From positions 1-58,483 of the forward strand of contig NZ_SSOM01000066.1 in assembly GCF_029871235.1 (NCBI RefSeq): a stretch of 58,483 nucleotides of DNA. The letters run 5' to 3'. The notes beneath the pieces were generated by a model. That model did no database searches. It was given only the letters and a program-made list of their open reading frames with translations, and was not told the DNA's origin. The position numbers and the translations under genes were made by a program. Positions 24,790 through 43,546 of this stretch are shown here, piece by piece; position 1 is the first letter of the stretch, and each line of letters starts with the position of its first letter. The stretch is from Pseudomonas sp. BN411. Lineage in GTDB: Bacteria > Pseudomonadota > Gammaproteobacteria > Pseudomonadales > Pseudomonadaceae.

Positions 24790-26367
24790 ATGAAAAAAGT
24801 CCTCATAGGACTCCTGTGCCTTGCGACACTCGGTTGCGCCCAGCAACCGGAACCGGAGAAAACCGTCGACGTGCTGCTGATCGGCGCCGGCATCATGAGT
24901 GCCAGCCTCGGCACCTACCTCCACGAGTTGGAACCGGACTGGACCATCGACATCTACGAACGCATGGACCAGGTCGCCGCGGAAAGCTCCAACCCCTGGA
25001 ACAACGCCGGCACCGGCCACTCCGCCTTCTGCGAGCTGAACTACACCCCGGAAACTGTCGACGGCAGCATCGACATCAGCAAGGCAGTGGCGATCAACGA
25101 ATCCTTCGAGATTTCCAAGCAGTTCTGGGCCTACCAGGTCGAGCGCAATGTGCTGAGCAACCCGAAGTCCTTCATCAACGGCGTGCCGCACATGAGCTTC
25201 GTCTGGGGCGATGACAACATCGCCTTCCTCAAGAAGCGCCACGCCGCCCTGCAGCACAGCTCGCTGTTCCGCGGCATGGAGTACTCCGAGGATCACGAAC
25301 AGATCAGCAAATGGGTTCCGCTGGTGATGGAAGGCCGCCCGGCCGAGCAGAAGGTCGCCGCGACCCGCATGGCCATCGGCACCGACGTGAACTTCGGCGA
25401 GATCACCCGCCAGCTCATCGACTCCCTGGCCAAGAGCGACAAGGTCTCGCTGAACCTCAAGCACGAGGTACGCGACATCAAGCGTAACGACGACGGCACC
25501 TGGACCGTGGTAGTCGCCGATCTCGGCAACAGCGAGGCGGTAACCAGCGTCAAGGCCAAGTTCGTCTTCATCGGCGCCGGCGGTGGCGCCCTGAAACTGC
25601 TGCAGAAATCCGGCATTCCGGAGGCCGAAGGCTATGCCGGCTTCCCGGTGGGCGGCCAGTTCCTGATGACCCGCAACCCTGAAGTGGTGGCCCAGCACCA
25701 GGCCAAGCTCTATGGCAAAGCCTCCGTGGGCTCGCCGCCCATGTCGGTGCCGCACCTGGACACCCGCGTGATCGATGGCCAGAAAGTGCTGCTGTTCGGA
25801 CCTTTCGCCACCTTCTCCACCAAGTTCCTGAAGAACGGCTCGCTGCTGGACATGTTCAGCGCCCTGACCACCGACAACATCGGCCCGATGACCAACGCCG
25901 GTCTGGATAACATTCCGCTCAGCACCTACCTCATGGGTCAGCTGATGCTGAGCCAGGCCGACCGCATGCACGAGCTGCGCGAATACTTCCCGGACGCCAG
26001 GGACGAGGACTGGGAACTGCTGACCGCCGGCCAGCGCGTTCAGGTAATCAAGAAGGACGCCGAGAAAGGCGGCATCCTGCAATTCGGCACCGAAGTCGTC
26101 AGCTCCGCCGACGGCAGCATCGCCGCCCTGCTGGGCGCCTCGCCGGGCGCTTCCACCGCAGCGCCGATCATGCTGACCGTGCTGGAGAAGACCTTCAAGG
26201 ACGAGGTCCAGACCCCGGAATGGCAGGCCCGCCTGAAGGAGATCATCCCCTCCTACGGCCGCAAGCTGAACAACGACCTGGAGCTGACCAACCAGGTCCG
26301 CGCCTGGAGCAGCGAACGCCTGCAGCTGGAACACGTTCCGGTGCTGCCTGAAGTAGCTGCGCAGTAA
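24790..26367 (+). CDS. mqo: Malate:quinone oxidoreductase with lipoprotein-type signal
   Basis: A 525-residue FAD enzyme that oxidises malate to oxaloacetate and reduces quinone, bypassing soluble malate dehydrogenase. The FAD-binding motif [20 protein letters not shown] starts near residue 30, and [20 protein letters not shown], then [13 protein letters not shown], are Mqo hallmarks, as is the end [15 protein letters not shown]. The N-terminus [19 protein letters not shown] has a lipobox (TLGC, Cys17), implying export and lipid anchoring; other Pseudomonas Mqo proteins I know carry cleavable signals, while the classical enzyme is cytoplasmic-peripheral. No other TCA gene is adjacent. Confidence 0.93.
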
Positions 26368-26370
26368 AGG

Positions 26371-26690
26371 CCCTCACCCCCGGCCCCCGCCCTGCGCCCC
26401 AGCCTGAGCGCTTCGCGCTCAGGCGTTCATCGGCACCAGAAGCGGTGCTTCCAAAAGCGTGCCTCTTCACCCCTGAAGAGGAGAGGGGTGACTCGCGCCG
26501 GCACCTCCGCACCATCCGGCTGGCCCCCCATTCCTGTGGCGGCGATCCTGTGGGGGCGATTTCAATCGCCAAGCAGGACGCAGTCCTGCCCAACGGACTC
26601 ACTGCCCAGCCAGACAACCCTCACCCCCGGCCCCTCTCCCAGAGGTAGAGGGGTGACTCGCGCCGGCGGCTCCGTGTGATCCGGCCGGCC
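26371..26690. repeat. CCCTCACCCCCGGCCCC repeats and half palindromic element
   Basis: Two units beginning CCCTCACCCCCGGCCCC (26371 and 26618) and ending GGGGTGACTCGCGCCGGC flank a left-arm-only copy of the palindromic element (26549-26590) with its inner hairpin GCAGGAC-GCA-GTCCTGC. The longer unit has a tail (CTGAGCGCTTCGCGCTCAGG) that recurs nearly unchanged at 40638-40761. No gene is seen in 26368-26809. Confidence 0.75.
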
Positions 26691-26729
26691 TCAACACACC
26701 CTTCACAAACCCAACATTTTCCCAAGGTT

Positions 26730-26748
26730 TTCTTCACGAATTCTTGAT
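26730..26748 (+). promoter_or_regulatory. ColR-type direct-repeat box before eptA
   Basis: TTCTTCAC (26730-26737) and TTCTTGAT (26741-26748) form a direct repeat with an 11-bp period, as OmpR-family regulators bind. The end of the first half-site is 73 nt before the eptA ATG, close to the spacing at two other genes of the island. Confidence 0.5.
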
Positions 26749-26809
26749 TCCGCCGTTCCTAAGCTCCTCGCCATATCCATGAGGGATATGTCGTCACAGC
26801 GAGCGGATC

Positions 26810-28453
26810 ATGTTCAAAAGCATCTCGATACGCCCCGAAGCCCTGGCCTTCCTGGCCAGCCTCCTGCTTCTCTCGATCTACAACCTTCCGCTCTGGCAGC
26901 ACCTCTTCTCCATCATCCCGGCGGATGCCGGCGGACTGGGAATGGGCGCGGCGTTCGGTGTCATGGTGCTGGCCGTGTTCAACCTGGTGCTGGCGCTGGT
27001 GTCGTTCCGCTGGGTGTTCAAGCCGGTCCTCATCTTCCTGTTCCTCGCCAGCTCCGGCGTCGCCTACTTCATGAGCCAGTACGGCGTGCTCATCGACGCC
27101 AACATGCTGCGCAACGTCGCGGAAACCGACGTCAACGAAGTGCGCGACCTGCTCTCGTTCAAGCTCGTGCTGTTCATCCTGATCCTCGGCGTGCTGCCCA
27201 GCTGGCTGCTGTGGAAGCTGCCGGTGCGCCACCAGCCGCTGCGCCGCGCGCTGTTCGACAAGCTGATCCTGGCCCTGGCTTCGGTAGCGGTACTCGGCGC
27301 CGTCGCGCTGGCCAACTACCAGGGGCTGGCGTCGCTGCTGCGCAATCACCACGAACTGCGCCTTCTGGTGGTGCCGAGCAACTACCTGAATGCCTCCTAC
27401 GGCTACCTCAAGGAGCAACTGGTGGTGGCTGGAGCTCCGCTGCAACAGATCGGCACCGACGCACGCAAGGCGCCCGCCTGGCAGGCCCACCAGCGCAAGT
27501 CGCTAACGGTCCTGGTGATCGGCGAAAGCGCGCGGGCGGACAATTTCGGCATCCTCGGCTACGGCCGCGACACCACGCCGCTGCTCAAGGGCCAGCCGGG
27601 CGTCACCGCATTCGGCAACGTGCGCTCCTGCGGCACCGAAACCGCGGTTTCCGTACCCTGCATGTTCTCCAACATGGGCCGCCACGACTACGACGCCGCC
27701 CGCGCCCGCAGCCAGGAAGGCCTGCTGGATGTCCTCAAGCATGCGGGGATTGCGGTGACCTGGCGCGACAACCAGTCCGGCTGCAAGGGCACCTGCGACC
27801 GGGTCACCCAGGACAATCTCAGCCATCGAAAAGACGCGGCCTTCTGCACCGGCGGCGAATGCCACGATGAAATCCTGCTGAAGGACCTGCAGGCCTACAT
27901 CGACCAGCTCAAGGACGACTCCGTGCTGGTCCTGCACCAGATGGGCAGCCACGGCCCGGACTACGCCAGGCGTTATCCCAAGCGCTTCGAGAAATTCACC
28001 CCGGTGTGCACCAGCAACGCGCTCAACCAGTGCAGCGAGCAAAGCATCGTCAACGCCTACGACAACACCCTGGTGTACACCGACTACGTGCTGTCGAACC
28101 TGATCGACCTGCTGCGCAAGAACCAGGACAAGGTCGACACCGCCATGCTCTACATCGCCGACCACGGCGAGTCGCTCGGCGAATACAACCTCTTCCTGCA
28201 TGGCACGCCCTACCTGCTGGCCCCCGACCAGCAGAAGCATGTGCCCCTGCTCACCTGGTTCTCCGACAGCTACCGCAAGGACTTCGCCCTCGACACGGCC
28301 TGCCTGGGCAAGGAACGGGACAAGCCGCTGAGCCAGGACAACCTCTTCCACTCCGTGCTGGGCCTGCTGCAGGTGCAGACCGGGGAATACAAGGAAGGAC
28401 TGGACCTGTTCGCCCCCTGCCGCGCCGGGACTACGGCCGTGACCAGCATCTAG
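26810..28453 (+). CDS. eptA: Lipid A phosphoethanolamine transferase (EptA/PmrC)
   Basis: A 547-residue inner-membrane enzyme of the alkaline-phosphatase fold. Five N-terminal membrane spans (to about residue 170) precede the periplasmic catalytic domain. Hallmarks are VIGESARADNFGILGYGRDT (metal-binding Glu), SCGTETAVSVPCMFS with the Thr nucleophile, several Cys for structural disulphides, HQMGSHGPDY and the DHGESLGEYNLFLHG metal motif. It moves phosphoethanolamine from phosphatidylethanolamine to lipid A phosphate, lowering negative charge and polymyxin binding. In P. aeruginosa the homologue answers to ColRS and zinc, consistent with the box upstream and the ColR-like gene at 37808. Confidence 0.93.
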   Translation: MFKSISIRPEALAFLASLLLLSIYNLPLWQHLFSIIPADAGGLGMGAAFGVMVLAVFNLVLALVSFRWVFKPVLIFLFLASSGVAYFMSQYGVLIDANMLRNVAETDVNEVRDLLSFKLVLFILILGVLPSWLLWKLPVRHQPLRRALFDKLILALASVAVLGAVALANYQGLASLLRNHHELRLLVVPSNYLNASYGYLKEQLVVAGAPLQQIGTDARKAPAWQAHQRKSLTVLVIGESARADNFGILGYGRDTTPLLKGQPGVTAFGNVRSCGTETAVSVPCMFSNMGRHDYDAARARSQEGLLDVLKHAGIAVTWRDNQSGCKGTCDRVTQDNLSHRKDAAFCTGGECHDEILLKDLQAYIDQLKDDSVLVLHQMGSHGPDYARRYPKRFEKFTPVCTSNALNQCSEQSIVNAYDNTLVYTDYVLSNLIDLLRKNQDKVDTAMLYIADHGESLGEYNLFLHGTPYLLAPDQQKHVPLLTWFSDSYRKDFALDTACLGKERDKPLSQDNLFHSVLGLLQVQTGEYKEGLDLFAPCRAGTTAVTSI

Positions 28454-28487
28454 TATTTGTCGGTCACCATGCGTGGGCGTCATGACA

Positions 28488-28508
28488 TTTTTTTCACGGG
28501 CTTTTGAC
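28488..28508 (+). promoter_or_regulatory. ColR-type direct-repeat box before the methyltransferase operon
   Basis: TTTTCAC (28491-28497) and TTTTGAC (28502-28508) form an 11-bp-period direct repeat. The first half-site ends 71 nt before the ATG at 28568. A possible -10-like TAGATT lies about 25 nt downstream of the second half-site. Confidence 0.6.
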
Positions 28509-28567
28509 CTCGCCACAACAGCCCGCCCTCTAGATTGAATAGATTCCTACACGGACCCGGTGCATAC

Positions 28568-29263
28568 ATGCCCCAACCTCGGCCGAAGCCTTTCGAGATG
28601 GAAAACTCAGGCGCCCCCGACGACGAATACGTCGAACTTCCGTCGCAGCCACGCCGCGAGGGCCTGGCCCGGCGCCTGGCCAACTGGCGTGAAGACCTCA
28701 TGACGCGGCAAGCCATGCGTATCGCCGGCGAGCCGAATCTGGTGCTCGACCTGCCCTGCGGCAGCGGCCGCTTTTGGCCGACCCTGACTCGTCACCCCAA
28801 TCGCCTGGTGCTGGCAGCCGATGAACCGGCGCCGCCGCTCGTCCGCCCCCACGCCAGCCGACGCGTGGAGATCGCCGAGCGCATCTGCGCGCTGCACACC
28901 CCGGTTTTTGCCATCGACCTCGGCGAGAACGCCGTGGACGCCATCTTCTGCATGCGTTTCCTGCACCGGCTGGACGGCGCTGACCGGCGCCTGGAAGTGC
29001 TGCGGGAATTTCACCGGGTCACCCGCGACACCCTGATCGTCTCCCTCTGGGTGGACGGCAACTACCAGTCCTGGAAGCGCAAACGCATGGAGCGGCGACG
29101 CAACCCCGATGGCTTCAGCGGGCGCCGGCCCGGCCGCTTCGTGGTGCCACGCGCACAGATCGAAAGCGAGTTTCACAGCGTCGGCTTCGACATCCTTTCC
29201 CATCTGGACCTGTTGCCAGGTTTAGCCATGTGGCGGGTCTACGTCCTGCGCAAGGCGTCCTGA
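28568..29263 (+). CDS. SAM-dependent methyltransferase
   Basis: A 231-residue class I methyltransferase. Motif I is LVLDLPCGSGRFW (residues about 58-70), followed by the acidic AADEPAPPL at the end of strand 2, NAVDAIFCMRFLHRLDGADR (motif IV and post-motif helix) and a strongly basic KRKRMERRRNPDGFSGRRPG patch that may contact phosphate-rich lipids. No signal or membrane span. The ATG at 28568 is preferred over 28535 because it follows the shared promoter spacing. It starts a unit with the beta-propeller gene 15 bp downstream. Substrate unknown; an envelope glycolipid or its precursor is suggested by context. Confidence 0.8.
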   Translation: MPQPRPKPFEMENSGAPDDEYVELPSQPRREGLARRLANWREDLMTRQAMRIAGEPNLVLDLPCGSGRFWPTLTRHPNRLVLAADEPAPPLVRPHASRRVEIAERICALHTPVFAIDLGENAVDAIFCMRFLHRLDGADRRLEVLREFHRVTRDTLIVSLWVDGNYQSWKRKRMERRRNPDGFSGRRPGRFVVPRAQIESEFHSVGFDILSHLDLLPGLAMWRVYVLRKAS

Positions 29264-29278
29264 GCGAAGGAGCTTTTC

Positions 29279-30223
29279 ATGTCTGCAGATTCCGCCTCGA
29301 TACCCTACCGCCGCTCCCCCATCGGCAAACGGCCACGCTCCGGGACACAACTGCTGATGCTGCTGCTCGACCGGCGCGCCGCGCGCTGGTTGTTGGCGGG
29401 TGTCGCCCTGCTCCTGCTGGTGGGTGCCGGAATACCCGCCTGGCACCACCTCTACCCGGCCACCGCCGCGGAGGGCTGGCGCTACAAGGTGCAACTGGAT
29501 GCCATCGAACGGGTCAGCGCGCTGCTGCCGGACGGCCAGGGCGGTCTGTACCTCAGCCAGGAGATTCAGGATGGCAAGGGACGGATTCTCCGCACCGGGC
29601 CGGGTGATCAGCGGCGCGTGGTGGAAACGGGCCTATCCAAGCCCGACGGCATGGTGCGCTATCGCGGCGGCGTCGCCTTCAGCCAGGAACAGGGAGAACA
29701 CCCGGTAATGTGGCTGAACGACCAGGGCACCCGGCAGCTGTTCAGCGGCGACAGCGTCGAAGGCCTGGCCACCGACGGCCACTACCTCTACGCCATCGAG
29801 GATCTCCACAAGAATGGCCGGCTGCTGCGCTACGACCCGGAAACCGACAGCGTGACCACCCTGCGCAGCGGGCTGGACGAGGCCGAGGCGATCGCCTCCT
29901 GCCCCGATGGCCGGCTGTTCTACACCGAAAAGAACTTTGGCCACGTGCGCCAGCTTCGCGCCGACGGTAACGACCCCGTGGTCCTCGACGGCCTGCGTGA
30001 ACCCGGCTTCCTGCTCTGCAACCGCGAAGGCCTGTGGATCACTGAAGACGCCACCCACATGGCGCGCGTCCTGCTGCTGGACGGCCAGGGCGGCCTGAAT
30101 GTCGTGCTGTCCCACCTGCGCTCGCCGCAGACCATCGTCGAAACCGCTCCGGGCCGTTACCTGGTCGCCGAACAAGGGCGCAACCGGGTGCTGGAACTGG
30201 CGAGACAGGACGATCACCCCTGA
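29279..30223 (+). CDS. Membrane-anchored SMP-30/strictosidine-synthase-like beta-propeller
   Basis: A 314-residue protein with a cytoplasmic basic tail, one membrane anchor (about residues 38-58) and a periplasmic six-bladed-propeller-type domain whose repeats read LLPDGQGGLYLSQEIQDGKG, LSKPDGMVRYRGGVAFSQ and CPDGRLFYTEKNFGHVRQL. Families with this fold include lactonases and sugar-lactone esterases. GAAGGAG before the ATG at 29279; 15 bp after the methyltransferase stop, so cotranscribed. It may hydrolyse or bind a modified sugar or lipid at the envelope; no catalytic residues can be assigned. Confidence 0.72.
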   Translation: MSADSASIPYRRSPIGKRPRSGTQLLMLLLDRRAARWLLAGVALLLLVGAGIPAWHHLYPATAAEGWRYKVQLDAIERVSALLPDGQGGLYLSQEIQDGKGRILRTGPGDQRRVVETGLSKPDGMVRYRGGVAFSQEQGEHPVMWLNDQGTRQLFSGDSVEGLATDGHYLYAIEDLHKNGRLLRYDPETDSVTTLRSGLDEAEAIASCPDGRLFYTEKNFGHVRQLRADGNDPVVLDGLREPGFLLCNREGLWITEDATHMARVLLLDGQGGLNVVLSHLRSPQTIVETAPGRYLVAEQGRNRVLELARQDDHP

Positions 30224-30301
30224 AGTCCGCGCTCCCGAGAAGGGCCTGCGCGCGAAACAAAAGCGCGAGCGAATTCAACGATTTGAAACATCAGTACACA
30301 A

Positions 30302-30319
30302 TTTTCACATTTATCTTGC
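30302..30319 (+). promoter_or_regulatory. Weaker ColR-type site before ugd
   Basis: TTTTCAC occurs at 30302-30308 in an AT-rich patch, with a poor second half (ATCTTGC at 30313-30319). It is 116 nt from the ugd start rather than 71-73, so a longer leader or a chance match is possible. Confidence 0.35.
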
Positions 30320-30423
30320 TACGTTAGTCCTAACGCCCGCTTGCCGGGTCGGCCGGGAGGGGCCGGGACCGGCGCACCACAAGGTCGCCAGACGGGCCAG
30401 AGATAACAACAAACAGGCGCTGA

Positions 30424-31767
30424 ATGAACATCACCATATTCGGAACGGGCTATGTCGGCCTGACCCAGGCAGCCTGCCTGGCAGAAGTAGGCCATACCGT
30501 GTGCTGCGTCGATATCGACGAACGCCGAATCGCCCAGCTCAGACAGGGCCTGTCACCGATCTACGAGCCTGGCCTGGAGACGCTCCTGCGGGGCAACCTC
30601 GCCGCCGGACGCCTGACCTTCACCACCAGCGCCGCTGACGGCGTGGCATTTGCCAAGGTCATCTTCATCGCCGTCGGCACGCCGCCTGACGAAGACGGCA
30701 GCGCTGATCTGCGGCACGTCTTCACCGTCGCCGACACCATCGCTACACACGCCACCGAGGCCAAGGTGGTGATCAACAAATCGACCTCCCCCGTGGGCAC
30801 CGCGCAGCGCCTGAAGGCTCACTTGAACGAAGCCCTGACACAACGCGGTCATGCGTTTGACATGCAGGTCGTGTCCAATCCCGAGTTTCTCAAGGAAGGC
30901 TCGGCGGTGGAGGACTGCATGCGTCCCGAGCGCATCATCATCGGCGTTGACGGCGCACAGGACATCGACCTGTTCCGCGAACTTTACAAACCCTTCAGTC
31001 GCAATCATGAAAAGCTGATCGTCATGGACAGCCGCAGCGCCGAGCTGACCAAGTACGCGGCCAACAGCATGCTTGCCACCAAGATCTCCTTCATCAACGA
31101 GATGGCCAACCTCGCCGAGCGGCTGGGCGCGGACATCGAAATGGTGCGCAAGGGCATCGGCTCCGATTCGCGAATCGGCTACGACTTCATCTACGCCGGC
31201 TGCGGCTACGGCGGGTCCTGCTTCCCGAAAGACATTCAAGCGCTGCGACGCACCGCCGCCGAGGTGGGCTACCACCCGCAACTGCTGGAGGCTGTGGAAT
31301 CGGTCAACCACCGGCAGAAGCACAAGGTATTCGAGAACATCCACCGTCACTACGACGGCAACCTCAGCGGCAAGACCTTCGCCCTCTGGGGCCTGTCCTT
31401 CAAACCCAATACCGACGACATGCGCGAAGCGCCGAGCCGGGTCCTGCTGGAAGCCTTGTGGGCGGCCGGTGCACGCGTCCGCGCCTTCGACCCCGAGGCC
31501 ATGACGGAGGCCAGGCGCCTGTATGGCGACCACCCCGACCTGCGCCTGGTCGACTCCAAGGAAGAAGCCCTGGACGACGCCCACGCCCTGGTGATCCTCA
31601 CCGAGTGGTTGAACTTCCGCGTCGCCGACTTCGGCCTGATCCACCAGCGTCTGGGCGACAAGGTGGTGTTCGATGGCCGCAACATCTTCGAACCCGCCCA
31701 CCTGGTCCGCGAAGGCCTGGCCTACTACCCAATCGGCCGTGCCGCCGTAGGAATCACCCCGCGATGA
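30424..31767 (+). CDS. ugd: UDP-glucose 6-dehydrogenase
   Basis: A 447-residue UDP-glucose/GDP-mannose dehydrogenase. The NAD motif GTGYVGLTQAACLAEVGHTV opens the protein; the catalytic Cys266 lies in GCGYGGSCFPKDIQAL; the C-terminal domain has LWGLSFKPNTDDMREAPS. It oxidises UDP-glucose to UDP-glucuronate in two NAD-linked steps. The leader has an AACAACAA stretch 11 nt before the start. Its stop overlaps the next gene's start by four bases, coupling production of UDP-glucuronate to the epimerase. Confidence 0.94.
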   Translation: MNITIFGTGYVGLTQAACLAEVGHTVCCVDIDERRIAQLRQGLSPIYEPGLETLLRGNLAAGRLTFTTSAADGVAFAKVIFIAVGTPPDEDGSADLRHVFTVADTIATHATEAKVVINKSTSPVGTAQRLKAHLNEALTQRGHAFDMQVVSNPEFLKEGSAVEDCMRPERIIIGVDGAQDIDLFRELYKPFSRNHEKLIVMDSRSAELTKYAANSMLATKISFINEMANLAERLGADIEMVRKGIGSDSRIGYDFIYAGCGYGGSCFPKDIQALRRTAAEVGYHPQLLEAVESVNHRQKHKVFENIHRHYDGNLSGKTFALWGLSFKPNTDDMREAPSRVLLEALWAAGARVRAFDPEAMTEARRLYGDHPDLRLVDSKEEALDDAHALVILTEWLNFRVADFGLIHQRLGDKVVFDGRNIFEPAHLVREGLAYYPIGRAAVGITPR

Positions 31768-32756
31768 AGATCCTGGTCACCGGCGCTGCCGGGTTCATCG
31801 GCTTCCACACTGCGCTGCGCCTGTGCAATGCGGGGCACCAGGTAACAGGCATCGACAACCTCAACGACTACTACAGCGTCGACCTCAAGCTCGCCCGACT
31901 GGAGCGGCTGCGTGCGCTTCCCGGCTTCGCCTTCCACAAGCTGGATATCGCCGACCGCGAGGCTGTGCAGGCGCTGTTCCACGAGCAGGGCTTCGAGCGT
32001 GTCATCCACCTCGCGGCCCAGGCCGGGGTGCGCTATTCGCTGGACAATCCGCATGCCTACGCCGAAGCCAACCTCACCGGCTTCGTCAACGTGCTCGAAG
32101 GCTGCCGCCGGAGCGGTGTCCAGCATCTGGTCTACGCCTCCAGCAGCTCGGTTTACGGAACCAACGCCAAGGTGCCCTTCGCCATCGAGGATGCCGTCGA
32201 CAACCCGATCTCGCTCTACGCCGCCACCAAGCGCGCCAACGAGCTGATGGCCCACACCTACGCCCACCTCTACCGGCTGCCCACCACCGGCCTGCGCTTT
32301 TTCACCGTGTACGGTCCCTGGGGCCGTCCGGACATGGCGCCATTCAAGTTCACCAAGGCGATCCTCGAAGGCCAGCCGATCGAGATCTACAACGAAGGCG
32401 ACATGTCGCGGGACTTCACCTACATCGACGACGTCGTCGAAGGCATCGTCCGCATCCAGGACTGCCCGCCGCCCTATGCCGACGAGTCGGAACAGGCTCG
32501 CCTGGGTGCGCCCGCACGGCTGTTCAACATCGGGCTGGGCTCACCGGTACGCCTGCTGGATTTCGTCGGCTGCATCGAGTCGGCCACCGGCGTCGAGGCG
32601 ATCAAGCAGATGAAGCCCATGCAGCCCGGCGACGTGCCACAGACCTGGGCCGACGTCAGCGCGCTGGCCAAGCGCACGGGCTTTCGTCCCGGCACACCAC
32701 TGCGCGAAGGCGTCGGTCGCTTCGTCGACTGGTACCGGACCTTCTACGGAGTCTGA
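31764..32756 (+). CDS. UDP-glucuronate 4-epimerase (GAE type)
   Basis: A 330-residue extended SDR. It shows GAAGFIGFHTALRL, DNLNDYYSVDLKLARLERL, the Ser cluster SSSSVYGTNAKVPF, catalytic Tyr152 and Lys156 (YAATK), MSRDFTYIDDVVEGI and the C-terminal MQPGDVPQTWADV, all typical of UDP-glucuronate 4-epimerases rather than GalE. It should convert UDP-glucuronate to UDP-galacturonate. The ATGA overlap with ugd and the downstream transferases argue that the end product is a galacturonic-acid donor. Confidence 0.9.
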   Translation: MKILVTGAAGFIGFHTALRLCNAGHQVTGIDNLNDYYSVDLKLARLERLRALPGFAFHKLDIADREAVQALFHEQGFERVIHLAAQAGVRYSLDNPHAYAEANLTGFVNVLEGCRRSGVQHLVYASSSSVYGTNAKVPFAIEDAVDNPISLYAATKRANELMAHTYAHLYRLPTTGLRFFTVYGPWGRPDMAPFKFTKAILEGQPIEIYNEGDMSRDFTYIDDVVEGIVRIQDCPPPYADESEQARLGAPARLFNIGLGSPVRLLDFVGCIESATGVEAIKQMKPMQPGDVPQTWADVSALAKRTGFRPGTPLREGVGRFVDWYRTFYGV

Positions 32757-32762
32757 CGGCAT

Positions 32763-33545
32763 ATGGGCAACGAACCGCGCCAGCTGACCGAGATCCAGCG
32801 CACCCGCCCCCAGCCGGAAGGCACCCGGCCCCATCAGGCGGCGGCCTTCGCGGCGCCACGGGCGATGCTCAAGGGCCTGGGACTGATCCTCAGCCTGGCG
32901 CTGATCGGCTACCTGTTCGACAGCAGTGACCTGGGCAACGCGGTCAACGAAGCCTGGATCGACGCCCACATTCGCGGCCACGGCGTCGAGGGTACCCTGC
33001 TCTTCCTCGCCGTGGGCATGCTGTTCACCGCACTCGGCCTGCCCCGGCAGATCATCGCCTTCCTTGCCGGCTACGCCTTCGGGCTGCTGCCCGGCACCCT
33101 GATCGCCACCCTGGCGACCCTGTGCGGTTGCCTCGTCACCTTTCTCTATGCCCGGCTGTTCGGCCGGAGCCTGCTGCGCGACCGCCTTGGTGCTCGCGCC
33201 GCGCGCTTCGACCGTTTCATCCACGAGCACCCGTTCTCGATGACGCTGCTGATCCGCCTGTTGCCGGTGGGCAGCAACGTGCTGACCAACCTCGCCGCCG
33301 GCATCTCCAGCGCGCGGCTCGCGCCCTTCCTGGCCGCCAGCTTCATCGGCTTCCTGCCGCAGTCCCTGGTGTTCGCGCTGGTGGGCAGTGGCATCTCGGT
33401 CGCACCGACGCTGCGCATCGGCACGGCAGCCGTGCTGTTCCTGATCTCCGGCATGCTCGGCGCCTGGCTGTACCACCGCCATCGCCATGGCCTGGGTATC
33501 GATGACAAGGTCGACGCCGCACTGGGCGAAGCGGAGCAGCCATGA
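32763..33545 (+). CDS. TVP38/TMEM64 (DedA-like) membrane protein
   Basis: A 260-residue inner-membrane protein with five or six hydrophobic segments. The conserved VTT-domain core is visible: LGLPRQIIAFLAGYAFGLLP, the re-entrant GTLIATLATLCGCLVTFLYA and RLLPVGSNVLTNLAAGIS. DedA and related proteins are implicated in lipid scrambling and in recycling of undecaprenyl phosphate. Lying 6 bp after the epimerase and overlapping the glycosyltransferase gene by four bases, it may flip the polyprenyl-linked sugar or recycle the carrier; this is inference from position. Confidence 0.82.
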   Translation: MGNEPRQLTEIQRTRPQPEGTRPHQAAAFAAPRAMLKGLGLILSLALIGYLFDSSDLGNAVNEAWIDAHIRGHGVEGTLLFLAVGMLFTALGLPRQIIAFLAGYAFGLLPGTLIATLATLCGCLVTFLYARLFGRSLLRDRLGARAARFDRFIHEHPFSMTLLIRLLPVGSNVLTNLAAGISSARLAPFLAASFIGFLPQSLVFALVGSGISVAPTLRIGTAAVLFLISGMLGAWLYHRHRHGLGIDDKVDAALGEAEQP

Positions 33546-34372
33546 TGGGTACACAACATGGACAGGCGACGACGGCGTCGCAACCAGGGAACGCAATGAC
33601 TCGTATGAACCCTTCTGAAGACGGACACCGCATGTCGAACAGGCCTTACCTCTCCGTACTGATCCCGGCCAAGAACGAAGCCGAGAACCTGCCCACGCTG
33701 CTGGAAGAGATTCGCCATGCGCTTGTCGGCGAGTCCTTCGAAGTGATCGTGGTCGACGACGGCAGTACGGATAACACCGCCTCGCGCCTGCTCGCCATGA
33801 AGCACGCCGGCTACCCGCAATTGCGCGTCCTCAGCCATGACCGCTCGCTGGGCCAGAGCACCTCGATCTACCACGCGGCGCAGGCCGCCGAAGGCACCTG
33901 GCTGGCGACCCTGGACGGCGACGGGCAGAACGACCCGGCGGATATCCCCGGCATGCTGGCCATCGTCCGCGGCCCGGACGCCCCCATCAATCTCAAGCTG
34001 ATCGCCGGCCACCGGGTGAATCGCCGCGATACCGCCAGCAAGCGCTGGGCTTCGCGCTTCGCCAACCGCCTGCGCGGCCGCCTGCTCAAGGACAACACCC
34101 CGGACACCGGTTGCGGCCTCAAGCTGATCGAGCGGGAAGCCTTCCTCCGCCTGCCCTATTTCGATCACATGCACCGTTTCATCCCGGCGCTGATCCAGCG
34201 CCACCAGGGCGGCATGCTGGTTCACCCGGTGAATCACCGTCCGCGTAGCGCCGGGGTTTCCAAATACGGCAACCTGGACCGCGCCCTGGTGGGCATCCTC
34301 GACCTGTTCGGCGTGTGGTGGCTGATCCGCCGCACCCGCTTCAACACCACGGCCCGCGAACTGGAGGGCTGA
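33542..34372 (+). CDS. GT2 polyprenyl-phosphate sugar transferase (DPM1/RgtE-like)
   Basis: A family-2 glycosyltransferase of 276 residues from this start. The catalytic fold begins at about residue 34: LSVLIPAKNEAENLPTLLEE, then EVIVVDDGSTDNT and ATLDGDGQNDPADIP with the metal-binding Asp pair. A single hydrophobic patch (LVGILDLFGVWWLI) near the C-terminus could be a membrane hook; the two C-terminal spans of ArnC are missing. The ATG at 33542 overlaps the upstream stop; 33596 (good AGGGA site) and 33632 are alternatives. Likely makes polyprenyl-phosphate-galacturonate from UDP-galacturonate, by pathway logic. Confidence 0.83.
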   Translation: MMGTQHGQATTASQPGNAMTRMNPSEDGHRMSNRPYLSVLIPAKNEAENLPTLLEEIRHALVGESFEVIVVDDGSTDNTASRLLAMKHAGYPQLRVLSHDRSLGQSTSIYHAAQAAEGTWLATLDGDGQNDPADIPGMLAIVRGPDAPINLKLIAGHRVNRRDTASKRWASRFANRLRGRLLKDNTPDTGCGLKLIEREAFLRLPYFDHMHRFIPALIQRHQGGMLVHPVNHRPRSAGVSKYGNLDRALVGILDLFGVWWLIRRTRFNTTARELEG

Positions 34373-34374
34373 GC

Positions 34375-35946
34375 ATGGGTCGCCTCTCGCCCACCCTGGA
34401 TGGAACCGCCGAACCCCTGAGCCTGCTGAGCTCCCGGCGCATCTCGCTGCTGCTCCTGCTGTTGCTCGCCGCCGCGATGATCAGCGCGGGCCTCGGCATG
34501 CGCCACCCGTCCAACGTGGACGAGGAGCGCTTCCTCGGCGTGGCCCTGGAGATGCTTCAGGGCGGCGACTGGCTCATTCCCCATCGCGCAGCCGAGATCT
34601 ACCCGGACAAGCCGCCGCTGTTCATGTGGGCCATCGCCAGCCTTACCCGGCTCGGCATTTCGCCGACCATCGCGCTGTTCCTGCCGGCGCTGCTGGCCGG
34701 CCTGGTCACCGTCGCCTGCCTGCACGACCTCGGTGCGCGCCTGTGGAACCGCCGTGTCGGTGTGATCGCCGGCCTGCTGTTCCTCGCCACCTACCAGACC
34801 TACAGCATCCAGCGCGCCGGGCAGATCGACGGTTTCCTGCTCCTGTGGACCGCCCTCGGCCTGTACGGCATGGCCAGGCACTTGCTGCTGGGCCCGGCCT
34901 GGGGCTGGTTCTACGTGGCCTGCGCGGCCATGGGCTTCGGCATCATCAGCAAGGGTGTGGGCTTCCTCCCGGCGCTGATGTTCATTCCCTATGTCTTTGC
35001 CGCCCGCCGTGGCTGGCACGGCGTGGCGCGGATGCCGGGCGAAGGCCGCGCCTGGCTGCTCGGCCTGGTGGTGGCCCTGGCGGCCATCGGTACCTGGCTG
35101 CTGCCGCTGATCATCAAGGTGATGCTGTTTGGCGACGAAGCTAGCCGCGCCTACCTCAACGAAATCCTCCTGCGCCAGACCGCCCACCGCTACGCCAACG
35201 CCTGGCACCACCGCGAACCCTTCTGGTTCTTCTTCACCCATGTGATTCCCAAGTACTGGCTGCCCCTGGTGCTGGCCCTGCCCTGGCTGGTACCGGCCTG
35301 GCGCCGCCAACTGGCCAAGCGCGACGGCCGTTACCTGGTGCTGCTGGGCTGGGTCGTGCTGGTGCTGATCTTCTTCAGTCTCAGCAGCGGCAAGCGCAAG
35401 CTCTACATCTACCCCGCCCTGCCCGGCCTGGTGCTGGCCACTGCGCCCCTGGTGCCCTGGCTGCTGCGCCGCTGGTTCGCCAGCCGTCCGCGCGGCCGGA
35501 AGATTTTCATTGGTCTGGCCCTGTTCTGGTTCTTCGCCTGGTTCGCCCGGGGGTTCGTCGAGCCGATCAAGGAAGGCGTCAATCCGCGCCAGACCCTGAT
35601 GATCGAGGTAGCCGATGTCACCAACGGCACCGAGCTGATGCTCACCCACTGGCGCGAGGGCCACTGGCTGTATGCGCGCCAGCCCCTGGTGCACTTCGGC
35701 ATGGTTGGGCCACAGCAGGTGGAGAAAGCCGCCGAGTGGCTGCGCAGCCACCCCGGTAACTACGCGCTGATCCGGCCTGAAGACCTGCCCCGCTGCTTCA
35801 AGCCGGAACTGGCCAAGCGCGTTGGCGATGGTGACGACGAAGACTGGTACCTGGTGCAGGGCAACGCCGACAACGGCCAGTGCCAGGACGCCACGGCCCG
35901 GCAACAGCAACCCTATCGATTCGCCTGGAAGCAACCACTCGACTGA
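34375..35946 (+). CDS. GT-C (GT39/GT83) glycosyltransferase, ArnT/Rgt-like
   Basis: A 523-residue integral membrane protein with about twelve spans. The first periplasmic loop has the catalytic-type acidic motif SNVDEERFLGVALEMLQGGD, then WLIPHRAAEIYPDKPPLFMW, closely paralleling ArnT (DE..Y and EKP). A FFSLSSGKRKLYIYPALPGL segment and a short soluble C-terminus follow. Such enzymes move a sugar from polyprenyl phosphate to lipid A or core on the periplasmic face. With no arnA/B/D/E genes here and an upstream GAE gene, galacturonic acid is a better donor guess than aminoarabinose. Confidence 0.88.
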   Translation: MGRLSPTLDGTAEPLSLLSSRRISLLLLLLLAAAMISAGLGMRHPSNVDEERFLGVALEMLQGGDWLIPHRAAEIYPDKPPLFMWAIASLTRLGISPTIALFLPALLAGLVTVACLHDLGARLWNRRVGVIAGLLFLATYQTYSIQRAGQIDGFLLLWTALGLYGMARHLLLGPAWGWFYVACAAMGFGIISKGVGFLPALMFIPYVFAARRGWHGVARMPGEGRAWLLGLVVALAAIGTWLLPLIIKVMLFGDEASRAYLNEILLRQTAHRYANAWHHREPFWFFFTHVIPKYWLPLVLALPWLVPAWRRQLAKRDGRYLVLLGWVVLVLIFFSLSSGKRKLYIYPALPGLVLATAPLVPWLLRRWFASRPRGRKIFIGLALFWFFAWFARGFVEPIKEGVNPRQTLMIEVADVTNGTELMLTHWREGHWLYARQPLVHFGMVGPQQVEKAAEWLRSHPGNYALIRPEDLPRCFKPELAKRVGDGDDEDWYLVQGNADNGQCQDATARQQQPYRFAWKQPLD

Positions 35947-36024
35947 TGGACCGATAACGGAGTGCGGCCCCCCCACTGTGAGGGGCTCGCGGTCGGCGCT
36001 CGTCCGAAGTACAGGATAAAAACA

Positions 36025-36984
36025 ATGAACAGTGCAGTTGAACTCAAGCGACACACCACCCGGCCGGGGCCGAACCTTCGCCGGCTCGCCCTCTGCGGAC
36101 TGGGGCTGGCGATCCTGCTCGCCGCCGTGGTCGCCACCGGCAAGTTCCACTGGCACCAGCGGGCCTGGTTCTACGTCACCAGCAACCTGCACGCGGACGC
36201 CTGGGCGGGCCGCAGTGTCTGGCTGCCGGATTACCGCGTCGAGGTCGAGGCGCGTCCGGTGGAAGGGGTGAACGACGACCTGTCCGCCATCGCCTTCGCC
36301 CCGGACCGCAAGGGCCTGCTGGCGGTAACCAACGCACCACCGGTCAAGCTGCTGGAGATGGACCACGAGGGGAAAATCACCGCGCAGTACCCGCTGGAGG
36401 GCTTCGAGGACGTCGAAGCCCTGGCCTACATGGGTGACGGCCAGGTGGTGGTGACCGATGAGCTGCAGCAGCAGTTGGTGTTCTTCCACCTCCCTGAGCA
36501 GCCCGGCCAGGTCATCGACAAGCGCGACAGCCAGACCCTGGCCCTGCCACTGGCCTCCAGTGCTCACAACAAGGGCTTTGAAGGCGTGGCGTACGACGCC
36601 GCCCACGACCGCATTTTCGTCGCCAAGGAGCGTGACCCGCGCCAGCTCTATAGCGTGAGCGGCGTCAAGGCGAGCCTCGGCGGCAAGTTGCAACTCAAGG
36701 TGGAAGACCTCAGCGACTGGATCGATCGCAGCGTCTTTACCAGCGATATTTCCGACCTGCATTTCGACGCCGCGACGGGGCACCTGCTGGTGCTCAGCCA
36801 TGAATCGAGGCTGGTGATCGAACTGGACGAGAACGGCGATCTGGTCAGCTTCCGCACCCTGCTCGGGGGCTTCGGTGACCTGAAGGAAAGCGTGGGCCAG
36901 GCCGAGGGCCTGACCCGGGATGACGCGGGCAATCTGTATGTAGTGAGCGAGCCGAACCTGTTCTACCGCTTCAGGAAGAACTGA
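36025..36984 (+). CDS. SdiA-regulated family beta-propeller, membrane anchored
   Basis: A 319-residue protein with a short basic cytoplasmic tail, one membrane anchor (residues about 23-40) and a periplasmic propeller of the SdiA-regulated family: VNDDLSAIAFAPDRKGLLAV, EGFEDVEALAYMGDGQVVV, KGFEGVAYDAAHDRIFVAKE and EGLTRDDAGNLYVVSEPNLF. The last motif is characteristic of the family, which has a calcium-bound fold and unproven esterase activity. AGGA site before the ATG at 36025. It ends the long unit begun by ugd and overlaps the convergent PAP2 gene by 14 bases. Second propeller of the island. Confidence 0.83.
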   Translation: MNSAVELKRHTTRPGPNLRRLALCGLGLAILLAAVVATGKFHWHQRAWFYVTSNLHADAWAGRSVWLPDYRVEVEARPVEGVNDDLSAIAFAPDRKGLLAVTNAPPVKLLEMDHEGKITAQYPLEGFEDVEALAYMGDGQVVVTDELQQQLVFFHLPEQPGQVIDKRDSQTLALPLASSAHNKGFEGVAYDAAHDRIFVAKERDPRQLYSVSGVKASLGGKLQLKVEDLSDWIDRSVFTSDISDLHFDAATGHLLVLSHESRLVIELDENGDLVSFRTLLGGFGDLKESVGQAEGLTRDDAGNLYVVSEPNLFYRFRKN

Positions 36985-37690
36985 CCGGTAGCGCCTCCCC
37001 GGCCTCCACCGGCGCCGGTCGGTAGAGCACCAGGCGGTAGCAGAGCAGGCTGATCACCCAGTCGAACAACAAGGTCCAGACGTTGTGGGAGAGAAAATGC
37101 GCCCCCTGCATCATCCTCCCCAGGGAGAACACGCTACCAAGGGCCAGGGCGCCCACCAGTGCCACTCGTGCCAGGCGCGGACGGCGGTCACGCAGGGCGA
37201 AGAACAGCGCCAGCAGGGAGAAGCCGGCCGAGGCATGACCACCAGGCCAGCAGCGCCCCGGCTTGTCGACGTAGGGATGGTGGCCCACCAGCGGCGAGTA
37301 CGGCTCGACGCCGCCGAACTCCTCCAGGCTCCAGGGGCATTGCACGGCGGTGACCGCCTTGAGCGGCGTGACGATGGCCGTGGACAGCCCCAGTGCCAAT
37401 ACCAGGTAGCCCAGCGGACGGCGCCACTGGCGCAGCCGGCTGGAGAGCAGGCTGGCGATGAAACCGGCGATGGCCAGCACGCCGAGACCGATCACCGCCT
37501 GCTTGGCGCGGTCGTGCAGCACGTCTTCGAGGAAGGCGCTGTGACGACCAATGAAGCCGGTCTGCGGGTCATAGAAGAGATGGGCAAGGGCAAAGTCGAG
37601 CCGCGGTACGTCAACCAGCAGCAGGAGCGCCATGGCCGCCAGCGGCAGGCCGCTCCAGAGCGCAAAATTGAAGGGGCGCGAGTGGGGCAT
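36971..37690 (-). CDS. PAP2-family phosphatase (lipid A/undecaprenyl-PP type)
   Basis: A 239-residue inner-membrane protein with about six spans. The three PAP2 motifs are recognisable but altered: KAVTAVQCP (Lys kept, usual Arg replaced by Cys), PGGHAS (usual PSGH) and GRMMQGAHFLSH (Arg and His kept, usual Asp replaced by His). Members of this superfamily remove phosphate from lipid A (LpxE/LpxF) or from undecaprenyl pyrophosphate. Divergent from the ColR-like gene, with a TTTTCAC-type box 71 nt before its start. A role in trimming lipid A phosphates fits the island. Confidence 0.85.
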   Translation of the reverse strand: MPHSRPFNFALWSGLPLAAMALLLLVDVPRLDFALAHLFYDPQTGFIGRHSAFLEDVLHDRAKQAVIGLGVLAIAGFIASLLSSRLRQWRRPLGYLVLALGLSTAIVTPLKAVTAVQCPWSLEEFGGVEPYSPLVGHHPYVDKPGRCWPGGHASAGFSLLALFFALRDRRPRLARVALVGALALGSVFSLGRMMQGAHFLSHNVWTLLFDWVISLLCYRLVLYRPAPVEAGEALPVSSS

Positions 37691-37749
37691 AGTGAAGTCC
37701 TGGGTGAGGAAGGTCCGCCGCAGTCTGACCTCCCTCGTGTGAGCAACTG

Positions 37750-37769
37750 GTAAAGGTCTTGTGAAAAAA
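37750..37769 (-). promoter_or_regulatory. ColR-type direct-repeat box between PAP2 and the response regulator
   Basis: On the minus strand TTTTTTCAC is followed after one 11-bp period by CTTTAC. The first half-site ends 71 nt from the PAP2 start and lies about 40 bp from the start of the response-regulator gene, so it could serve autoregulation too. Confidence 0.55.
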
Positions 37770-37807
37770 GCATCAACGGCACCCTGGTGCCGGACAGAGG
37801 GCAGCAC

Positions 37808-38491
37808 GTGCGCATACTGATCATCGAAGACAACCGCGACATCCTCGCCAACGTGCTGGACTACCTCCAGCTCAAGGGCTACGGCGTCGACTGCGCCCAG
37901 GACGGCCTCTCCGGCCTGCACCTGGCGACCACCCAGCACTACGACCTGATCGTGCTGGACATCATGCTGCCCGGCATCGACGGCCTGCAGCTATGCAACC
38001 GACTGCGCCAGGAAGCACGCCGCGATACGCCGATCATCATGCTCACCGCCCGCGACACCCTGGAGGACCGCCTGGCCGGGCTCAGGTCCGGTGCCGACGA
38101 TTACCTGGTCAAGCCCTTCGCCCTGTCCGAACTGGTGGCTCGCATCGAGGCGGTGGTGCGGCGCAGCCACGGCGGACGCAAGCGCCAGCTGCAAGTGGCC
38201 GACCTCAGCTACGACCTCGACACCCTCGAAGCCACCCGCGCGGGCCAGATCATCAAACTCAACCCCCTCGGCCACAAGCTACTCACCACCCTGATGCGCA
38301 GGAGCCCGGCCGTGGTCCGCCGCGAAGTGCTGGAAGAAGCCCTCTGGGGCGACAACTGCCCGGACAGCGACAGCCTGCGCAGTCATATCCACCAGCTGCG
38401 CCAAGCCCTCGACAAACCCTTCCCGCGCCCGCTGCTGCACACCATCCATGGCGTCGGCTACCGGCTGGCGGATCTGGAAGAACGGGACTGA
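37808..38491 (+). CDS. ColR-like OmpR-family response regulator, no adjacent kinase
   Basis: A 227-residue response regulator. Receiver domain: acidic pocket IIEDN, phospho-acceptor Asp51 in LIVLDIMLPGIDG, Thr in MLTARDT and Lys in DDYLVKPFALSEL. The winged-helix domain has LRSHIHQLRQALDKPF and LLHTIHGVGYRL. QDGLSGLHLATTQHYDLIVL, EALWGDNCPDSDSLRSHIHQ and the overall length match ColR as I remember it. The start is GTG at 37808 with a GAGGGC site. A ColS-type sensor gene is not downstream: a hairpin repeat and an unrelated transporter follow. It probably controls the TTTTCAC-type promoters of the island. Confidence 0.88.
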   Translation: MRILIIEDNRDILANVLDYLQLKGYGVDCAQDGLSGLHLATTQHYDLIVLDIMLPGIDGLQLCNRLRQEARRDTPIIMLTARDTLEDRLAGLRSGADDYLVKPFALSELVARIEAVVRRSHGGRKRQLQVADLSYDLDTLEATRAGQIIKLNPLGHKLLTTLMRRSPAVVRREVLEEALWGDNCPDSDSLRSHIHQLRQALDKPFPRPLLHTIHGVGYRLADLEERD

Positions 38492-38518
38492 GGTGGGGCA
38501 GATTCAGAAGCCAATCCG

Positions 38519-38587
38519 GTAGGGTGCGCCGTGCGCACCGGCGGTTTGACGGGGTGCCGAAGCCTCGGTGCGCACAGCGCACCCTAC
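38519..38587. repeat. GTAGGGTGCGC inverted repeat
   Basis: Arms GTAGGGTGCGCCGTGCGCAC and GTGCGCACAGCGCACCCTAC enclose about 28 nt. It follows the response-regulator stop and may act as its terminator or as an mRNA-stabilising hairpin. A half copy is near 18482. Confidence 0.8.
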
Positions 38588-38687
38588 GGTCCAGACTGCG
38601 GCCAGGACGGTGAATGAATTCGTCCTCACAGTTTCTTGCCCCCCTTCTTGCCTAACCTGATAGCAGCCGCACCAACAGGACAGGGAC

Positions 38688-39866
38688 ATGCCCGCTACCA
38701 CAACCACCTCCCGCATCCCGCGCACAGTCTGGGCGCTGGGTTTCGTCAGCCTGTTCATGGACCTTTCCTCCGAACTGGTGCATGGCCTGCTGCCGCTGTA
38801 CCTGGTGGGCAGCCTGGGCGCCAGCATGCTCGCCGTTGGGCTGATCGAAGGCCTGGCCGAAGCCACCGCCCTGGTGGTCAAGGTCTTCTCCGGGGCCATC
38901 AGCGACTACCTGGGCAAGCGCAAGGGCCTGCTGCTGTTCGGCTACGGCCTGGCAGCCCTGACCAAACCCCTCTTCCCCCTCGCCGGTTCCGCCGACCAGG
39001 TGCTGCTCGCCCGCCTGCTGGACCGGGTCGGCAAGGGAATCCGGGGTGCGCCACGGGATGCCCTGGTGGCCGATGTCGCCCCGCCGGAAATACGCGGCGC
39101 CTGTTTCGGCCTGCGTCAGTCCATGGATACCGTCGGCGCCTTTCTCGGGCCACTGCTGGCGATCCTGCTGATGACGCTGCTGGCCGGTGATATCCGCCTG
39201 GTGCTCTGGTTCGCGGTGCTGCCGGCCTTGGTATCCGTGGCCTGCATCCTGGTCGGCGTGAAGGAATCCGAGGCTTCCCGGCCTTCCCGGCACCTGCGTT
39301 CGCCCGTCCGCTTCCGCGCCTGGCGCAGCTTTCCCGCAGCCTACTGGTGGGTGGTGGGCCTGGGCGCCCTGTTCAGCCTGGCCCGCTTCAGCGAAGCCTT
39401 TCTGGTTCTGCGGGCGCAGGACGCCGGTTTTTCCACCACCTGGGTTCCCCTGGTGATGGTGGTGATGGCGGGGTTCTACATGCTGTCGGCCTATCCGGCC
39501 GGCAAGCTCTCAGACCGAATCAGCCCGACGGGGTTGCTGGCGTTTTCCCTGGTACTGCTGATCGTCGCCGACCTGCTGCTGGCCCGTGCCGGCTCCCCTG
39601 CCCTGCTGCTGGCCGGCGTCGCCTTCTGGGGCCTGCACATGGGCTTCAGCCAGGGCATTCTCGCGGCGCTGGTGGCCGAAACCACCCCGACGGACCTCAA
39701 GGGCACCGCGTTCGGCCTGTTCAACCTGGCCAGCGGCGCCGCCCTGCTGGTGGCCAGTGTGCTGGCAGGCTGGCTGTGGCAGAGCCTGGGCGCGGCCAGC
39801 ACCTTCCTTGCCGGTGCGGCTTTCTGCGTGGCGACGCTCCTGCTGCTGGTGCTGCGTCGGCGCTAA
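38688..39866 (+). CDS. MFS transporter
   Basis: A 392-residue transporter with twelve predicted spans. Family motifs include SGAISDYLGKRKGLLLFGYG (loop 2-3 motif), LDRVGKGIRGAPRDALVADV, FGLRQSMDTVGAFLGPLLAI and, in the second half, PAGKLSDRISPTGLLAFSL. The GKGIRGAPRDAL signature is typical of a drug or metal-related MFS subfamily with unknown substrates. ATG at 38688 after an AGG site. Not obviously linked to the lipid A island. Confidence 0.85.
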   Translation: MPATTTTSRIPRTVWALGFVSLFMDLSSELVHGLLPLYLVGSLGASMLAVGLIEGLAEATALVVKVFSGAISDYLGKRKGLLLFGYGLAALTKPLFPLAGSADQVLLARLLDRVGKGIRGAPRDALVADVAPPEIRGACFGLRQSMDTVGAFLGPLLAILLMTLLAGDIRLVLWFAVLPALVSVACILVGVKESEASRPSRHLRSPVRFRAWRSFPAAYWWVVGLGALFSLARFSEAFLVLRAQDAGFSTTWVPLVMVVMAGFYMLSAYPAGKLSDRISPTGLLAFSLVLLIVADLLLARAGSPALLLAGVAFWGLHMGFSQGILAALVAETTPTDLKGTAFGLFNLASGAALLVASVLAGWLWQSLGAASTFLAGAAFCVATLLLLVLRRR

Positions 39867-43536: not shown

Positions 43537-43546
43537 GGCCAGCGCC

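Follow-up and report, generated by a model that had tools for sequence, protein, structure and literature searches.

A predicted ColR-linked gene island for galacturonic acid modification of lipopolysaccharide phosphates in Pseudomonas sp. BN411

Gene layout of the island

We analyzed a 58,483-nucleotide contig of Pseudomonas sp. BN411 (NZ_SSOM01000066.1, forward strand), hereafter the window, which in our numbering of genomes (G), contigs (C) and loci (L) is G000:C36 and belongs to a 6.37-Mb genome in 86 contigs, rated 100% complete. An initial annotation had placed at positions 26,810–38,491 a set of genes for remodelling lipopolysaccharide (LPS) with galacturonic acid (GalA) under an orphan ColR-like regulator. 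Judging from its sequence, this region is likely to be a ColR-controlled island for the remodelling of LPS phosphates, in which GalA would be provided as UDP-galacturonate (UDP-GalA), loaded on a lipid carrier and transferred by an ArnT-like enzyme. Papers are cited below by PMC number.

All genes named in the initial annotation are present, and searches with Pfam and equivalog profiles confirm that they had been called correctly (Table 1). One strand holds eptA, a methyltransferase gene, a beta-propeller-like open reading frame (ORF), ugd, gae, dedA, gt2, gtC and a gene for an SdiA-regulated-domain protein; PAP2 is antiparallel to the core run, and the response regulator gene, which starts with GTG, is divergent from PAP2. 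The overlapping junctions reported for the core amount to two overlaps of 4 bp each (ugd/gae and dedA/gt2), while gae and dedA are 6 bp apart and gt2 and gtC 2 bp. Three genes on the core strand had gone unmentioned, namely those for the WarA-like methyltransferase, the beta-propeller-like ORF and the SdiA-regulated-domain protein.

Table 1. Genes and ColR-type sites of the island (window coordinates).
Feature	Position	Strand	Basis
ColR-type box upstream of eptA	26722..26748	+	16-mer, 1 mismatch, plus weaker site 11 bp on
EptA-type phosphoethanolamine transferase	26810..28453	+	NF028537 674 bits (cut-off 500); PF08019, PF00884
Tandem ColR-type box (28482, 28493) upstream of methyltransferase	28482..28508	+	holds the best PWM match of the window
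Methyltransferase, WarA-like by neighbourhood and ColR box	28535..29263	+	PF13649/PF08241
Beta-propeller-like protein (strictosidine synthase/NHL type)	29279..30223	+	PF03088 weak, 22.2 bits (under cut-off 25)
Weak ColR-like sites in ugd leader	30295..30319	+	PWM ranks 9 and 15 of the window
Ugd, UDP-glucose 6-dehydrogenase	30424..31767	+	TIGR03026 456 bits (cut-off 189.8)
GAE, predicted UDP-glucuronate 4-epimerase	31764..32756	+	best PDB match 5u4q; UDP-glucuronate epimerase residues
DedA/VTT membrane protein; predicted LAB_N replacement, candidate flippase or docking partner	32763..33545	+	PF09335 84.4 bits (cut-off 33.9)
GT2 with an ArnC-like catalytic domain and no transmembrane helices; predicted polyprenyl-phosphate GalA synthase	33542..34372	+	PF00535
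GT-C, ArnT-like periplasmic transferase	34375..35946	+	ArnT-like sequence, residues and predicted fold
SdiA-regulated-domain protein	36025..36984	+	PF06977 301 bits
PAP2 phosphatase, LpxE-like	36971..37690	-	PF01569; NF028538 94.6 bits (under cut-off 275)
ColR-type box between PAP2 and regulator, upstream of PAP2	37761..37776	-	1 mismatch
ColR paralogue (ColR-prime), GTG start, no adjacent sensor gene	37808..38491	+	76% identity to G000:C37:124212

Predicted supply of UDP-galacturonate

The assignment of the GAE protein was based on the residues that mark a UDP-glucuronate 4-epimerase: an active-site Tyr and Lys, a Thr/Ser-Ser-Ser stretch and Thr178 around the carboxylate, and no decarboxylase Glu. 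Its best solved relative is 5u4q (E 3e-141), followed by 6zl6, which we take to be BcUGAepi, and by MoeE5 further down. The protein has all the expected features, since Y152, K156, S127–S129 and T181 match Y149, K153, T126–S128 and T178 of 6zl6, whose numbering agrees with PMC7984243; on the GalE model it scores 154 bits, under the cut-off of 262. The epimerase gene is also a regular companion of the GT2 gene. Of the 30 other genomes of the family in which this GT2 was found, 29 (L133–L161) have the two genes together, the exception being G033 (read in L164), in which neither gae nor ugd was found within 19.5 kb. Likewise, gae adjoins gt2 in 17 of 20 named Pseudomonas/Stutzerimonas loci (L022–L040, L093), except for L028–L030, whose gene families were read in L029 alone.

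The two glycosyltransferases

ArnC combines a GT2 domain with C-terminal transmembrane helices. The window GT2 is related to the ArnC structure 9hwj (E 6e-22) and falls outside ArnC itself: the domain is present, no membrane helix is found (peak 19-residue hydropathy 1.23), and the score on the ArnC model NF007986, 81 bits, misses the cut-off of 529. The GT-C has the predicted fold and active-site residues of ArnT, including those said to orient the acceptor phosphate. Because it stays below the cut-off of the ArnT equivalog NF009784 (71.9 vs 567 bits) and no ArnA was found in the genome, we call it ArnT-like rather than ArnT. The earlier label "ArnT/Rgt-like" thus holds on its ArnT side, by sequence, residues and predicted fold, the comparison having been made with ArnC and ArnT alone. 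The closest database relative of the GT-C is 97% identical and is named from Metapseudomonas lalkuanensis. The proposed lack of aminoarabinose synthesis agrees with a genome-wide search in which no match reached the ArnA cut-off, reached in 14 control genomes; the other arn genes were not searched singly.

Other candidates in the genome were set aside. Two GT2 matches on C43 (29 and 31%) lie in an apparent core LPS cluster with a carbamoyltransferase and an O-antigen-ligase-like gene, an ArnC/ArnT-like match on C40 (27%) contains a stop, and a GT-C match on C50 (29%), with flanks read in part, is a PMT_2 protein. Loci L028–L030 carry a different GT-C, followed in L029 by acyl-CoA dehydrogenase genes.

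A DedA protein in the place of LAB_N

The most surprising element, and new here, is an alternation at the position of dedA, which in most relatives is occupied by a gene for a small LAB_N protein (PF07578). Among 80 named loci, LAB_N lies near GT2 in 58, DedA in 10, both in none and neither in 12; a 4-kb look at the latter located LAB_N in L025 and DedA in L081, and several of the ten remaining loci have, by eye, a parB-like gene before GT2. GT2 is present in 31 of 198 Pseudomonadaceae genomes, 16 of which have LAB_N only, 14 only a DedA of the window type (counted at E up to 1e-30), one (G100) both and none neither. The exclusion has a Fisher p of 6e-8 with no correction for common descent, and a single genus accounts for 11 of the 14 genomes that have DedA only. 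LAB_N was not found in the BN411 genome. In G100 the DedA (G100:C19:72383-73111) is on a contig other than that of GT2. Neither gene is near GT2 in 9 of 29 family loci, all of genus g9, in which LAB_N is 2–3 kb downstream.

LAB_N is predicted to fold into three helices (pLDDT 95). When the PDB was searched by profile, the top five matches were SemiSWEET sugar transporters (best E 0.008); the Foldseek list is weak, with SemiSWEET leading, and VIA does not rank SemiSWEET first. In genus g9, a single gene encodes a fusion of two LAB_N domains (L165:12654-13355, minus strand, downstream of the SdiA-domain gene), and nine g9 genomes have two matches each. Such a fused pair recalls the step from SemiSWEET to SWEET. 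Since LAB_N is faintly SemiSWEET-like, LAB_N and DedA may be alternative flippases for a lipid-linked sugar. We propose, tentatively, that LAB_N and the DedA subgroup found here can substitute for each other as flippases of undecaprenyl-phosphate-galacturonate, or as flippase-docking subunits. LAB_N would then be a SWEET-type half-transporter, replaced by a TVP38-like DedA in several lineages. It is somewhat less likely than not that DedA, instead, serves only to recycle undecaprenyl phosphate in the role of UptA, the alternation reflecting lineage history and not equal function. In favour of this, PA4029, a DedA of P. aeruginosa, flips C55-P and supports the addition of 4-amino-4-deoxy-L-arabinose (Ara4N) (PMC12893004), and all 11 GT2 genomes of the same genus have DedA, so that much of the pattern is one lineage. 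On the other hand, both states are found inside genus g5 (DedA in G046, G168 and G172, LAB_N in G090), and DedA stands beside GT2 in other Proteobacteria too. Furthermore, undecaprenyl-phosphate flippases of the DedA family (COG0586) are recognized by an acidic tip of the first and basic residues of the second re-entrant helix, and are said to bear acidic residues (PMC10127716), whereas the window DedA, read by eye and unaligned to YghB, seems to have none in its first re-entrant region (GLPRQ) and one Arg in the second. It shares the VTT domain with the DedA family (UptA; the COG0398/TVP38 group), but its gene lies inside a sugar-transfer operon, where LAB_N is its alternative.

ColR-type boxes in the island

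The search for ColR-type boxes used the consensus from PMC2689224 and a position matrix (PWM) from seven footprinted sites. Three sites with one mismatch occur in the window, each in a leader, at 26722 (eptA), 28482 (methyltransferase) and 37761 (PAP2), while 40 Markov versions of the window have a mean of 0.45. By PWM, these boxes and two neighbours 11 bp downstream are the five best sites of the 58 kb on both strands, and 25 Markov sequences contain on average 0.08 sites at the third PWM score. The sites at 26733 and 28493 each follow a consensus box at a spacing of 11 bp, an arrangement that would fit tandem binding of two dimers. In sister loci L022 and L023 all three positions are likewise occupied by a box, which is perfect in four of the six cases (the eptA site has no mismatch in L022 and one in L023; the methyltransferase site is perfect in both). 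The PAP2 box position recurs in L022, L023, L171, L173 and L174, and the order box-methyltransferase-ugd is found also in L170. A direct box before ugd was rejected, the window having only weak sites there. A scan of 26300–39000 found no sigma-70 promoter, and no terminator-like site was found before ugd; the box at 28482 is probably the upstream element of the whole run to 36984.

Association with ColRS in relatives

In genus g10 the link to colRS is direct. One strand of L162 has, in order, colR, colS, a perfect box with its tandem partner, and ugd-gae-gt2-LAB_N-gtC; L163, L167 and L170 show the same order plus a methyltransferase-like match before ugd. The Stutzerimonas locus L024 presents colR, colS, box and methyltransferase, with ugd-gae-dedA-gt2-gtC 3.4 kb further, and in L168 (g5) a DedA-type operon lies 3.7 kb from colRS with PAP2 between. 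Thirty-nine genomes were searched for ColR; eight of these have GT2, and in five the two genes are less than 5 kb apart, in G028 and G024 a long distance separates them, and in G030 they are on different contigs. Outside the family, L052, L071, L075 and L086 have RaxR-like regulators with ColS-like kinases (28–31% identity to ColS) next to the locus, and in L086 (Pseudoxanthomonas) and L055 (Halomonas) gtC is followed by relatives of PAP2 and eptA. Overall, the tie to ColR put forward in the initial annotation is strengthened by leader boxes that recur in sisters and by colRS directly beside the operon in g10. The link is not general, since most named LAB_N-type Pseudomonas loci have no ColR box at the operon. 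L162 also has a perfect ColR box before a gene divergent from colR (L162:13877-15945), which encodes a 660-aa sulfatase-domain protein, perhaps phosphoethanolamine-transferase-like.

An additional ColR and a probably lost partner

ColR-prime keeps Asp51 and the recognition-helix stretch and falls inside the tree of ColR-like regulators; we name it ColR from the layout and the boxes, the comparison being with the ColR-like copies of these genomes. The end of the other copy, on C37, overlaps a histidine kinase gene, and searches next to this copy turned up no PAP2 and no methyltransferase. The window regulator is an orphan in that no colS was found next to it in the window, and is not the only regulator of its kind in the genome. 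It forms a fully supported clade with L022, L105 and L173 (L174 is identical), which groups with moderate support (88/91) with Stutzerimonas, g5, g17 and other ColRs, and not with the C37 copy; long branches are flagged in this tree. L022 has both the island regulator and a second ColS, sited between eptA and the methyltransferase gene, L171 only the second ColS, and the window only the regulator, and for this reason the island probably once owned a ColRS pair of which strains lost different halves. A colS remnant in the window and a regulator remnant in L023 were sought by tblastn, which found none, and an apparent L023 remnant seen by eye was dropped.

Flanking genes

EptA belongs to the NF028537 family; it does not reach the narrower equivalog PRK11598 (604.5 vs 660 bits). 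The methyltransferase is the sole copy found in the genome, and warA is a member of an operon adjoining colRS (PMC8805031). The PAP2 protein has the PAP2 domain but stays under the cut-off of the lipid A phosphatase model NF028538, with scores taken on a stretch beginning 25 codons upstream, so that it is at most a putative LpxE; its relatives sit near colRS or eptA in other loci. The beta-propeller-like ORF between the methyltransferase gene and ugd is kept in the sister species and matches no Pfam family above cut-off. The SdiA-regulated-domain gene recurs after GT-C in the Pseudomonas-type loci L022–L025, L038, L093 and L165. At 40941–44569 of the window lies a row of ethanolamine-permease-like transporter, class III aminotransferase-like and kinase-like genes, a possible amine route near eptA.

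Discussion

The succession of UDP-GalA supply, polyprenyl-phosphate loading and periplasmic transfer, already envisaged in the initial annotation, is the best reading of the gene content. Ugd would produce UDP-glucuronate, which GAE would convert to UDP-GalA, and GT2 would load GalA on polyprenyl phosphate. DedA (LAB_N in most relatives) would carry the lipid-linked sugar across the membrane or hold GT2 at it, and the GT-C would transfer GalA in the periplasm from the carrier to an LPS phosphate, of lipid A or the inner core, as has been suggested for the core galacturonyl-phosphates of Xanthomonas. EptA and the LpxE-like PAP2 would act alongside on lipid A phosphates. ColRS would switch on eptA, PAP2 and, from the 28482 box, probably everything between the methyltransferase gene and the SdiA-domain gene, both included; ColR-prime, a presumed remnant of the island's own pair, probably works via a ColS encoded elsewhere. 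In P. putida, ColRS responds to excess zinc and iron; the system is known for its part in tolerance of these metals and in root colonization.

The nearest model is found in Xanthomonas. Its LPS core carries GalA via phosphate, a lipid-carrier-linked galacturonide has been detected, and an Ara4N-like transfer has been suggested (PMC8042644); a short ArnC-like gene lies between an epimerase gene and a LAB_N-type gene, and arnT is beside raxRH, the sugar of ArnT being left unassigned (PMC8306577). The window GT2 is 55–58% identical to the GT2s of three Xanthomonas loci (L060, L070, L083), in which gae and LAB_N are adjacent. Joining these reports with this identity and adjacency, we consider the addition of GalA to an LPS phosphate the most likely reaction. 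Xanthomonas also has ColRS-type regulators beside arnT, lpxE and eptA (PMC8306577, PMC8042644), with the difference that its genes are split over separate loci (PMC8306577), whereas here a single island includes ugd and has DedA for LAB_N. The P. putida ColR regulon (PP0035-33, PP0900 PAP2, PP0903-905, CptA) resembles the island in that PAP2 and colR diverge around a ColR box, a phosphoethanolamine transferase is included, and a ColR box precedes PP0903 beside colRS (PMC2689224, PMC4074579); however, PP0035-33 encode GtrA, ArnC-like and ArnT-like proteins without ugd or gae, while the island has a UDP-GalA operon and lacks colS. The enterobacterial arn pathway shares with it an ArnC-like GT2, an ArnT-like GT-C with conserved site residues, and a regulated LPS-phosphate modification, but no ArnA was found in the genome, the predicted sugar is an acid instead of a cationic amino sugar, and the island has a GT2 without membrane helices, and DedA where the arn pathway has ArnEF as its counterpart.

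Rhizobium, which the initial annotation had offered as precedent, uses polyprenyl-linked GalA and periplasmic GT-C enzymes (RgtE/RgtA-D with LpxE) and resembles the island by description; the GT-C of the island reads as ArnT-like, and Xanthomonas and Arn give the closer model by GT2 identity, gae and LAB_N adjacency and ColRS-type neighbours. A reaction of the Rhizobium type, in which GalA would go to sugar hydroxyls of Kdo or, after phosphate removal by PAP2, of lipid A, is unlikely. PAP2 relatives do recur beside the locus, enzymes with this GT-C fold are able to act on hydroxyl acceptors, and GalA is reported on the lipid A backbone of Oligotropha, and at C-1 for Phyllobacterium; yet the GT-C matches ArnT and keeps the phosphate-orienting residues, and PAP2 is far under the lipid A phosphatase cut-off. 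PMT_2-type GT-C enzymes modify many acceptors, and the run also includes two genes whose products have no assigned function, as would suit a surface glycoprotein, an exopolysaccharide or a periplasmic glycan as target of the carrier-linked sugar. We regard such a non-LPS target as quite improbable, considering that ColRS-type regulators, eptA, LpxE-like PAP2 or the WarA-like methyltransferase recur alongside in several genera of the family and partly in Xanthomonadales and Halomonas. Finally, the epimerase could supply UDP-GalA or UDP-galactose for a general polysaccharide while GT2 and GT-C use another nucleotide sugar, the neighbourhood being only regulatory, as the loci with GT2 and LAB_N but no nearby gae would allow. 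This, too, is quite improbable in view of the regular adjacency of gae and gt2, the low GalE score and the UDP-glucuronate epimerase residues of GAE.

Several observations weigh against GalA transfer to LPS phosphates under ColR. Loci L028–L030 hold a 76–77% identical GT2 and LAB_N without gae and without a close GT-C nearby; in L164, gt2-LAB_N-gtC lies close to colRS, with neither gae nor ugd alongside. Consequently, other routes may make use of GT2, or the epimerase may be encoded elsewhere. The solved relative 5u4q is labelled dTDP-glucose 4,6-dehydratase in the PDB, which we take as a mislabel, and we infer both the donor of GT2 and the acceptor of GT-C. GalA adds negative charge and would not shield from cations as Ara4N does, and the open-licence literature searched contained no report of GalA in Pseudomonas LPS, nor of a ColR-controlled UDP-GalA operon. 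As for the boxes, 2 of the 40 Markov sequences also have at least three one-mismatch sites, and the 14 sites with up to two mismatches are matched or exceeded in 6 of 100 shuffles. Genome-wide, boxes with up to one mismatch are no commoner than those of a reversed control (80 vs 120), and perfect ones were discarded as evidence (2 vs 4). The pattern alone thus proves nothing genome-wide, and only clustering (three boxes in 11.2 kb vs 0.14 expected at genome density) and recurrence in place count. Moreover, because the sites in the ugd leader are weak, ColR control of the core would depend on transcription reading through from 28482 across a gap of 200 bp.

If GalA transfer to LPS phosphates under ColR is correct, galacturonate would be added to the LPS chemistry of pseudomonads and placed under ColRS, and the island would offer a candidate gene set for the lipid-linked galacturonide and the galacturonyl-phosphates of Xanthomonas. 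The LAB_N/DedA alternation couples two questions, the role of LAB_N and that of DedAs beyond the recycling of undecaprenyl phosphate; should the two proteins prove interchangeable, DedA proteins would have a second job in the outward movement of lipid-linked sugars, and LAB_N would gain a function.

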